35,591 bases of DNA from assembly GCA_947175495.1 (NCBI GenBank), contig CAMWNB010000025.1, positions 1 through 35,591 of the forward strand. Reading direction: 5' to 3'. The notes beneath the pieces are model-generated. The model was not told the origin of the DNA, searched no databases, and saw nothing but the letters and a program-made list of their open reading frames with translations. Positions 26,080-27,879 of this stretch are shown here, in pieces; the first letter of the stretch is position 1; every line of letters begins with the position of its first letter. The stretch comes from an uncultured Porphyromonadaceae bacterium. GTDB lineage: Bacteria; Bacteroidota; Bacteroidia; Bacteroidales; Muribaculaceae. Both the position numbers and the translations under genes were made by a program.

Positions 26080-26820
26080 TTACTTCTCTCCCAAGCGGGT
26101 CTGGAATTCACTTATGAGCGACTCGAACTCCTTCATTATACGGTTGGTCTCCATAAATGATTCTTCCTTGCTGCGGCTTTGCATCGGAGCCATTTCAGAC
26201 GTGAGTTTTATCTGGAAAGTAAGCTCCCCGCCGATGTTCGACTCTTTTATCGTAACACGGTGCCTCAGCGTTTTGCCGGCGTCAATATAATTCTTATAAA
26301 GCCACGGAGTCTGTATAAACCCCGACGCCATATCGGACGTCAGTATCTCATCGAAATACTTAAGAAGCACGCTGTGCGCCAGCTTCCAGGCATTATCCGC
26401 ATTACGTTTGCCACTTCTCTTATCGTCCGAATATAAGGATTTATTGACCTTGACAGAAAAGAAATTGTTTGCGATTGAAGATTCTGCGGTCTGTCTTAAC
26501 AGCATATCTTCCTTCAGCTTGATTTCTATAGTCTTTCTGCCGTCATTGCCATAAACACGGGTCGTAAGCGTTTCGTAGCCCGGTGCCGAGCACTCAAGTG
26601 AGATGAAATCCTTTTTCTTAATCTTCACTTTTGCCGAGCCTTCGCCATAATACGAGCCATTCACCTTAATTGTCGCATCGGAAGGAATCACAACAATCTG
26701 GATTTCTTTCTCTCTTCCTAAGAATTTGTTGATTTTACCCGACACCTCGTCCAGTTGAGCCGATGCGTCCGCAAAACCCAGAAGAAAGAATCCGACAAGC
26801 GTTATCACCAAGCGGGTCAT
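26080..26820 (-). CDS. Exported PEGA-domain protein, paralogue 2
   Basis: A 246-residue protein with a signal peptide (MTRLVITLVGFFLLGFADASAQ). A PEGA domain follows (about residues 42-100: IVVIPSDATIKVNGSYYG, then SLECSAPGYET), a small beta domain common in surface proteins that bind or present glycans. The next 140 residues or so have no family I recognise; they include WKLAHSVLLKYFDEILTSD and TPWLYKNYIDAGKTLR. The start is ATG 26820, seven bases after the upstream stop; the longer frame to 26859 lies inside that gene. By hand count it is about 83% identical to the neighbour over 205 residues, and it has about 18 extra residues between the signal peptide and PEGA. Confidence 0.78.
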   Translation of the reverse strand: MTRLVITLVGFFLLGFADASAQLDEVSGKINKFLGREKEIQIVVIPSDATIKVNGSYYGEGSAKVKIKKKDFISLECSAPGYETLTTRVYGNDGRKTIEIKLKEDMLLRQTAESSIANNFFSVKVNKSLYSDDKRSGKRNADNAWKLAHSVLLKYFDEILTSDMASGFIQTPWLYKNYIDAGKTLRHRVTIKESNIGGELTFQIKLTSEMAPMQSRSKEESFMETNRIMKEFESLISEFQTRLGEK

Positions 26821-26827
26821 GGCATTC

Positions 26828-27514
26828 CTATTTTTCTCCAAGACGAGACTGGAATTCACTGATTAAAGTCTCGAACTCTTTCATGATACGATTAGTCTCG
26901 AGAAACGACTCCTCTCTGCTGCGTCCCTGTATCGGAGCCATTTCGGATGCCATTTTAATCTGGAACGTCAGATCACCGCCGATATTGGACTCCTTTATCG
27001 TGACTCTGCAGCGAAGTGTCTTGCCTGCCTCAACATAGTTTTTATATAGCCATGGTGTTTGAATGAAGCCCGACGCGGCGTCTGATGTCATGATTTCATC
27101 AAAATATTTCAGCAACACACTATGCGCCATTTTCCACGCATTCTCCGAATTTCGTTTCCCCGTTGTCGGGTCATCGCTATACAGCGACTTGTTCACCTTC
27201 ACCGAAAAGAAGTTGTTCGCGACAGAAGATTCTGTTGTCTGCTTCAGCAGCATATCTTCCTTCAGCTTGACCTCGATAGTCTTTCGGTCGTCATTGCCAT
27301 AGATACGGGTGTTAAGGGTTTCATAGCCAGGGCAGCTACATTCGAGCGACACAAAGTCGTTCTTTTTGATTTTAAGGACTGCGCTCCCGTCTCCATAGTA
27401 GGAGCCGTTAACTTTGATTGTTGCCTCGGAGGGGATAACGACAATCTTTATGTCCTTTCCCCATGCATACACAGCGAAGACAGCTGCAATCAACATCAAG
27501 AAACTTCTTTTCAT
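26828..27514 (-). CDS. Exported PEGA-domain protein, paralogue 1
   Basis: A 228-residue protein with a signal peptide (about residues 1-19) followed directly by a PEGA domain (IVVIPSEATIKVNGSYYGDG, then SLECSCPGYETL) and the same unassigned C-terminal domain as its tandem partner at 26080. Most differences are conservative (Asp/Glu, Ile/Val, Lys/Arg), as expected for a duplication kept under selection. It is the first gene of the AT-richer patch, and the 6S-like RNA region with its promoter (27770-27800) lies directly upstream, so the RNA could also be part of its 5' leader. The function is unknown. Confidence 0.8.
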   Translation of the reverse strand: MKRSFLMLIAAVFAVYAWGKDIKIVVIPSEATIKVNGSYYGDGSAVLKIKKNDFVSLECSCPGYETLNTRIYGNDDRKTIEVKLKEDMLLKQTTESSVANNFFSVKVNKSLYSDDPTTGKRNSENAWKMAHSVLLKYFDEIMTSDAASGFIQTPWLYKNYVEAGKTLRCRVTIKESNIGGDLTFQIKMASEMAPIQGRSREESFLETNRIMKEFETLISEFQSRLGEK

Positions 27515-27589
27515 GATTGGTTCTTATGCGGTTCCCAGCTCCCATGAACCATTAAAATGCCGAAGCGTGGAACTGTATGCCACGTCTTA

Positions 27590-27705
27590 AAGTGAAGGTG
27601 CTAGGAATACCTTTGAGAACAGATGTGGAAACAGCCCCACGCTATGCGCGGGAACCGTCTGCCTACTCTTGTTCTCGTGGTTAAAGTTTCCTAGGCTTTT
27701 CACTT
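27590..27705 (-). ncRNA. ssrS: 6S-like structured RNA candidate
   Basis: On the minus strand the region folds into one long interrupted hairpin. AAGTGAA pairs with TTCACTT (27699-27705 with 27590-27596), CTAGGAA with TTCCTAG (27601-27607 with 27688-27694) and GAGAAC with GTTCTC (27615-27620 with 27671-27676). These are separated by internal loops, with a large bubble around 27608-27614 and 27677-27687. The tip is a CCCGCGC-ATA-GCGTGGG hairpin that needs a G-U pair only on the minus strand, which fixes the direction. A rod with a central bubble is the hallmark of 6S RNA, which binds RNA polymerase. The transcript probably runs from about 27764 to about 27545. The identity is uncertain; a leader element for the PEGA gene is the alternative. 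Confidence 0.55.
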
Positions 27706-27769
27706 ACAAGAAGAAGACATAACGCTTCTTTTTAATCAAATGTCGTGACAGGACTTACCTTGTCAGCCG

Positions 27770-27800
27770 CAAAATTACGAAATATTGGTCTATCCGGCAA
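27770..27800 (-). promoter_or_regulatory. Promoter of the structured RNA
   Basis: A minus-strand -33 TTG (27800-27798) is followed after 20 bases by the -7 box TAATTTTG (27777-27770), a near-ideal Bacteroidota promoter. Two further identical minus-strand TAATTTTG boxes lie upstream at 27817-27810 and 27828-27821. The first transcribed base should be near 27764, about 60 bases before the RNA core. Confidence 0.7.
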
Positions 27801-27879
27801 TAGCTTGCGCAAAATTAGTTCAAAATTAATTTGGTTCCCTGCCACACACATCCGAACAGCCCCCCGCCCGCACAAAAAA

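Follow-up and report, generated by a model that had tools for sequence, protein, structure and literature searches.

The stretch of DNA analysed here (the window, 35,591 nucleotides) comes from an uncultured bacterium of the Muribaculaceae, and on its minus strand a long folded sequence lies between a promoter motif and two genes for PEGA-domain proteins. This arrangement raises the question of whether the fold is a free-standing RNA or part of the mRNA that follows it. The initial annotation favoured a 6S-like RNA and named a regulatory leader of the PEGA genes as the alternative. The reading reached here, with moderate confidence, is that of a structured 5' leader of the PEGA mRNA, portable and acting in cis on translation initiation, which belongs to an order-wide family. 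This leader family of gut Bacteroidales is apparently undescribed.

Organisation of the locus

Between positions 27514 and 27800, the minus strand carries in order a promoter, a short 5' hairpin, a rod of 171 nt and a second hairpin, after which the first PEGA gene begins with its AUG. The promoter motif reported in the initial annotation was found again, with TTG at 27800-27798 and TAATTTTG at 27777-27770 separated by a gap of 20 nt; the arrangement TTG-20-TAATTTTG (27770..27800, minus) is presumed to be a Bacteroides-type promoter from its likeness to the consensus. A further TAATTTTG is present on the same strand at 27810-27817, 40 nt upstream of the promoter motif assigned to the leader. 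The 5' hairpin (TGACAAGGTAAGTCCTGTCA, 27746..27765, minus) lies near the expected transcript start, and its segments covary (z -5.6 in the segment scan described below). The main rod (27560..27730, minus), made up of helices P1-P4 and a tip, matches positions 1-171 of the covariance model R2 with 125.9 bits, a score that comes from one of the 24 copies used to build the model. It is followed by the 3' hairpin (27529..27551, minus) with a six-pair stem (z -7.0 in the same scan) and the loop ATGGGAGCTGG, in which GGAGCTG (27542-27536, minus) forms one half of a pseudoknot (z -6.1). The other half is the P1 bulge CAGTTCC (27569..27575, minus), and the two pair with -10.5 kcal/mol. The extent first given to the element, 27545..27800, is therefore too short at one end: the unit continues to about 27515 and ends beside the PEGA start codon.

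The first PEGA gene (26828..27514, minus, AUG at 27514; PF08308, E 7.3e-06) encodes a protein with a hydrophobic N-terminus, and the second (26080..26859, minus; PF08308, E 2.5e-06) is probably co-transcribed with it behind the same leader. The two genes resemble a tandem duplication, with 73.4% identity over 620 bases (26081-26699 versus 26829-27447). A strong terminator-like hairpin of 15 pairs with a T run (27912-27880, minus) separates the gene upstream from the leader, so that the leader and the PEGA pair look like a separate unit.

Fold and covariation of the rod

The claim that a folded element is present stands: read on the minus strand (27730-27560), the rod has a predicted energy of -67.9 kcal/mol (z -7.1), and none of 200 shuffled sequences was as stable. 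The nested arms described previously are there, although over 171 nt and not about 115. On the plus strand, the same stretch gave z -3.3 with 1 of 200 shuffles as stable. The longer stretch 27530-27790 gave z -3.9 and -3.5. An alignment of 24 sequences read as minus-strand RNA contained 226 G-U against 41 A-C cells, a count in keeping with folding of the minus strand but leaning to this strand because the structure was itself derived from its folds.

Consensus folding of alignments gave structures of only 35 and 27 pairs, in the authors' view because the variable helices were misaligned, and was replaced by folding each copy and mapping its pairs, which resulted in a rod of 64 pairs with 88.6% of cells paired (24 sequences). 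Compensatory base changes among homologues, proposed earlier as a check on the element, were found in this consensus: 97 cells were changed on both sides of a pair compared with 38.0 in shuffled alignments (0/500), and the covariation score was 0.269 compared with 0.182 (0/500). Pairs with a change on both sides (21 against 15.1, 1/500) and further pair types (70 against 63.0, 5/500) were also more frequent, all of these values being favoured by the partial derivation of the 64 pairs from folds of the tested sequences. The pairing signal was lost when the strands were slid against each other.

Swapping strands between copies gave a similar picture, in 244 of the 263 distinct copies (19 in which the script found no P3 were left out). 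The own strands of P2 and P4 beat swapped strands in 96.7% and 93.0% of comparisons respectively. A cruciform joined by kissing loops was considered in place of the rod, and this test spoke firmly for the rod and modestly for the cruciform's local 5' hairpin (own strands better in 68.2% of comparisons, and better than the swapped mean in 170/244 copies). The local 3' hairpin did worse than swapped strands (39.2%), which speaks against it. In this and in the corresponding energy test of the pseudoknot, p-values overstate the case because the copies include relatives and so lack independence.

Every pair among 70 nine-base segments was scanned in 110 copies sampled from 168 non-redundant ones. 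P3, P2 and P4 ranked first, followed by the stem of the 3' hairpin, the pseudoknot between bulge and loop, the 5' hairpin and, as a would-be competitor of P2, a local hairpin (z -5.2); other rows beyond z -3 were also present. With weaker support than the rod itself, the competing hairpin could represent the alternative state of a switch. Together with the conserved internal loops that lie between the covarying helices, this is what a riboswitch would offer, with a small molecule bound by the loops and the local hairpin as the switch. However, the support for that hairpin is modest and comes partly from related copies, and the genes downstream, described below, make a riboswitch quite unlikely.

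By eye, many copies contain an AUG in P1 (rod positions 10-25) that opens a short frame, such as MSSSCK in the window or MLIL in others. A leader peptide was considered for these frames and set aside, since their reading frames and lengths vary between copies and some copies have no AUG (also by eye); no leader peptide is claimed because the P1 frames are not conserved as coding.

A pseudoknot between the rod and the 3' hairpin

Base pairing joins the bulge in the basal helix P1 to the loop of the 3' hairpin, and this pairing also shows compensatory changes. The three copies in the window genome carry three different matching sets, CAGTTCC/GGAGCTG, CAGTCC/GGACTG and CAGCCC/GGGCTG (the last two by eye). 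More widely, the bulge type CAGTTC occurs with the loop types GAACTG, GGACTG or GAGCTG, CAGTGC with GTGCTG or GTACTG, and TGGCTC with GAGCCA or GAGTCA. In 233 copies (30 were left out, 28 without a bulge recognised by the script and 2 that were too short), the bulge and its own downstream region paired with -9.2 kcal/mol compared with -6.7 for swapped partners, and 186/233 copies lay below the swapped mean. The best duplex began 15-24 nt after the rod in 181/233 copies. Pairing of -6 kcal/mol or better between the bulge and the chosen hairpin loop was reached in 177/233 copies and missed in the other 56. Six pairs between bulge and hairpin loop were possible in 153/233 copies against 62.5 with swapped partners, a biased count because the hairpins were picked partly by that pairing; the segment scan is free of this bias.

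On alignment A5 (75 of 242 sequences), three of five measures of the pseudoknot exceeded all 500 shuffles, among them the cells changed on both sides (43 versus 21.2, 0/500) and the covariation score (0.292 versus 0.221, 0/500). The remaining two did not rise above shuffles, with 7 versus 5.4 pairs showing change (62/500) and 17 versus 15.5 pair types (134/500). Sliding one strand by +1 gave more changed cells (51) but fewer paired ones (64.5% versus 72.1%), which is read as the result of one subtype being out of register by one column. Taken as comparative evidence, these results leave both the leader family and its pseudoknot well supported.

The 3' hairpin also stands at a recurring distance from the start codon. 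An AUG was present in 155 of the 177 copies that reach this pairing energy of -6 kcal/mol, at a median of 16 nt after the hairpin and at 12-19 nt in 89/155 copies, in a set of hairpins chosen partly through the bulge pairing and with a structure derived partly from the tested sequences. The spacer between hairpin and AUG is 44% A. No pairing of the rod with the AUG was among the 60 listed rows of the segment scan, which extends 48 nt past the rod and so takes in the AUG of some copies but not of others.

Distribution of the family

Relatives of the element were found by DNA search in 25 of 61 genomes (the window genome and 60 relatives), often several per genome and some of them short or weak. 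The model R2, built from 24 loci and used with a threshold of E 0.001 or better, found three copies in the window genome and matches in at least 33/49 genomes of the genus, at least 222/297 genomes and 27/30 genera of the family, and at least 78/295 genomes of the order; these counts are lower bounds because stricter filters were used. Up to nine matches per genome were found in the family and order searches. In a sample of the phylum, at least 10/296 genomes matched, namely the window genome and nine listed as belonging to the same class but to other orders. Among named genomes, a pattern scan gave at least 119 stretches, and among 80 titles listed the carriers include Bacteroides gallinarum, B. 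muris, Phocaeicola coprophilus, Butyricimonas, Leyella, Xylanibacter, Alistipes, Duncaniella, Muribaculum, Porphyromonas and Prevotella. At least two of the stretches belong to B. gallinarum DSM 18171, a cultured strain. Among the titles listed, that of one metagenome (L205) says Firmicutes. In one AT-rich genome, three copies (L116, L117 and L118) begin 219-302 nt from the starts of their contigs, as if the preceding sequence were repeated.

Outside the order, 11 copies from other families of the class were compared (L321-L331). In L321-L324, a hairpin loop matches the P1 bulge by eye, confirmed by the script only for L321 (-7.0 kcal/mol). The script found an ATG at 42-54 nt in 3/11 of these copies (L321, L323 and L324), and by eye L322 has one at 53 nt, its first frame of 60 codons starting at 140. 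In front of L321, L322 and L324, the exact motif TAnnTTTG lies at 29, 30 and 54 nt respectively; L323 has none upstream. Of L325-L331, three have no ATG frame within 300 nt and four have an ATG at 78-275 nt; these rods are perhaps a related RNA with another role.

Recurring geometry from promoter to start codon

Model matches oriented 286 loci, and counting identical rods once left 263 distinct copies. Left out before either count were L097 and L088 (weak antisense matches), L161 and the second match of L165 (both partial), L207 (weak), L227 (partial), L267 (cut at an end) and L292 (cut). The 263 rods include the copies that built the model, whose span excludes the promoter, the second hairpin and the AUG. 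The exact motif TAnnTTTG occurs within 75 nt upstream in 225/259 copies (4 without enough upstream sequence were left out) compared with 157/4326 random stretches from the same loci, and in 186 of the 225 it lies 43-54 nt before the rod. On the other side, an ATG opening at least 60 codons follows the rod at 40-59 nt in 150/252 copies, and the longest downstream ORF shares the strand of the rod in 238 copies, lies on the opposite strand in 10 and is absent in 7.

This geometry bears directly on the 6S proposal. A 6S RNA or another free-standing small RNA would account for the rod shape and for the element having its own promoter motif, and long rods with internal loops are what the element shares with 6S RNA (RF00013, RF01685). 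Unlike 6S RNA, however, it is multi-copy and placed in cis between promoter and AUG, with a same-strand ORF downstream in 238/255 copies. The Rfam search of the region suggested with the initial annotation placed the window, like 20/20 relatives, below the gathering score of every Rfam 15 family, the best weak match of the region having 19 bits where 70 are needed. Neither RF00013 nor RF01685 matched in the window genome, a weak argument by itself because control genomes also gave few or no matches (RF00013 in 5/14; RF01685 in 4/14, and over its own cut-off in 0/14). The 6S identity was thus dropped on the Rfam search and the genomic context, and chiefly because the element is multi-copy and many different genes carry it between promoter and start codon. 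A free-standing RNA of any kind is considered extremely unlikely.

A leader that works on transcription has more in its favour. The rod would act on RNA polymerase as an antiterminator, in the manner of put or EAR, or as a very large attenuator hairpin, either allowing or silencing the transcription of foreign genes; this agrees with the recurring distance to the promoter motif, with the mobile-element cargo downstream and with runs of at least four T at the rod end in 149/261 copies. The use of one leader before many genes would also suit an action on transcription or on mRNA stability. However, the T run that an intrinsic attenuator carries directly after its stem was not the pattern found, with at least six T at only 29/261 rod ends, at least five T after 2/233 3' hairpins and nothing terminator-like where the rod of the window ends. 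An action on transcription would also leave the conserved AUG spacing without a reason, and it is regarded as unlikely.

Genes behind the leader

The alternative raised in the initial annotation, a regulatory leader of the PEGA genes, gains support from these data as a putative regulator and extends well beyond PEGA. Proteins encoded downstream were collected for 232 of 259 copies (27 lacked an ATG frame of 60 codons in the first 110 nt) and fell into 134 clusters (BLASTP, E 1e-8), 105 of them with a single member and one of them PEGA. They matched 106 Pfam families, with some clusters sharing domains, and 24 PADLOC models of defence proteins, one member each. Such a range is unlike a metabolite regulon, with no shared pathway among the genes, and this weighs against the riboswitch. 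The proteins may lean towards export: a hydrophobic N-terminus was scored in 88/134 clusters compared with 258/830 other ORFs of the loci (at least 120 codons), by a crude rule.

Some downstream proteins are cargo of mobile elements, in plasmid, phage and integrative-element contexts. In plasmid pBUN1 of Bacteroides uniformis (L313, 4004-4173), the leader lies between a MobV relaxase gene and a class A (MUN-1) beta-lactamase gene, and in a plasmid of Parabacteroides distasonis it precedes a gene annotated as DUF4433. A DarT match is among the 134 clusters. In a locus from a viral collection (L310), genes for an integrase, a Mob_Pre relaxase and proteins with DUF5906 and Toprim domains occupy the 6 kb upstream, and L309 is 93.3% alike over this upstream DNA.

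Exchange between loci

Pairs of rods with at least 92% identity over at least 150 bases, and with 300 bases available on both sides, were compared for how far the likeness extends. Both flanks were alike in 26 pairs (16 groups of loci). The likeness was confined to the rod in 21 pairs (10 groups), ran from the promoter to the rod end in 21 pairs (3 groups) and from the promoter through the gene in 2 pairs (2 groups). In 7 pairs of one group, it ran from 1.5-6 kb upstream, where the fetched DNA ends, to the rod end and then ceased; the remaining 8 pairs fell into four smaller classes. Likeness of the rods is read as recent common descent because the variable helices are alike too, and the rods thus appear to have been exchanged between genes. 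The leader and PEGA genes of the window are common to L026, L170 and L220, in whose upstream flanks blastn (E 1e-15) gave no match to the gene that precedes the leader in the window.

Likeness over the rod alone, the group that differs after the rod end and the plasmid, phage and integrative-element contexts would also suit a mobile repeat or recombination site, in which case the near-palindrome would be a MITE-like or attC-like DNA element and its leader position a by-product. However, MITE or REP elements insert regardless of gene orientation, whereas the rod precedes same-strand ORFs in 238 copies against 10. The recurring distances to promoter and AUG, and a pseudoknot with one half beyond the rod, also speak against a DNA element, which is judged very unlikely.

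Among the palindromic candidate RNAs listed in PMC8040213, HMP2_4078 is described as a 109-bp palindrome of Bacteroidetes near D5 N-terminal (primase-type) and phage integrase domains. From this description alone it may, as a guess, be the inner part of the rod, and the palindromic candidates there may include fragments of the leader. The section of PMC8040213 on HMP2_4078 differs from the present account in describing neither a leader architecture nor a pseudoknot, nor use by many genes. The search of open-access main texts, PMC7366714 and PMC2864571 among them, gave no description of the leader family, and HMP2_4078 is the closest candidate in it.

Proposed action on translation

Comparison of the copies supports the family, its structure, the pseudoknot, the recurring geometry and the exchange. 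Conserved structure and recurring start-codon geometry, the marks of a leader RNA that controls translation, were both found, and the same arrangement before many genes suggests a shared way of controlling their translation. Transcription through the leader is predicted from the promoter motif, and an effect on translation is inferred. In the proposed mechanism, transcription would begin close to the 5' hairpin, the RNA would fold into the long rod, and the hairpin before the start codon would dock onto the rod through the pseudoknot of bulge and loop. A docked hairpin about 16 nt before an AUG would sit near the edge of the 30S subunit. The docked fold could in this way gate or position the subunit. 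Because the module carries everything from promoter to AUG, it would be able to serve any gene, and it has moved between cargo genes.

The biology of initiation in the Bacteroidia gives this mechanism its place. According to PMC9976891, these bacteria do without Shine-Dalgarno pairing because a pocket of the 30S platform retains the 16S tail, and according to PMC6847099 initiation depends on structure and on the bases before the AUG. Structure and bases beside the AUG would thus set initiation. This biology and the hairpin about 16 nt before the AUG are the reason for ranking translational control first. The 5' UTR of B. thetaiotaomicron has a median of 32 nt according to PMC7366714, which makes a leader of about 250 nt exceptional. 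A further and doubtful possibility, drawn by analogy, is a portable, gene-independent translation module whose folded docking domain would itself bring in or place the 30S subunit, loosely comparable to a viral internal ribosome entry site.

Known systems share parts of this design. The rpsO and thrS leaders of E. coli control translation through a pseudoknot or a docked structure near the initiation codon, each serving one gene and binding the product of that gene. The present leader is likewise a structured 5' UTR with a tertiary contact close to the site of ribosome entry, but it stands before 134 clusters of proteins and is common to different loci. The put and EAR leaders of processive antitermination are cis-acting RNAs near the promoter that serve whatever follows. 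The present leader resembles them in being cis-acting near the promoter and independent of the gene; it differs in sequence and size and in also keeping its distance from the AUG.

Significance

A leader of this size and conservation points to a layer of control that is absent from Rfam. Since such a leader would be a single RNA, it would make start-site choice and regulation without Shine-Dalgarno pairing directly testable in the Bacteroidia. The leader would also be a natural tag for genes moved between genomes. If the comparison with an internal ribosome entry site were true, newly acquired genes would be expressed or gated by it in any host of the order.
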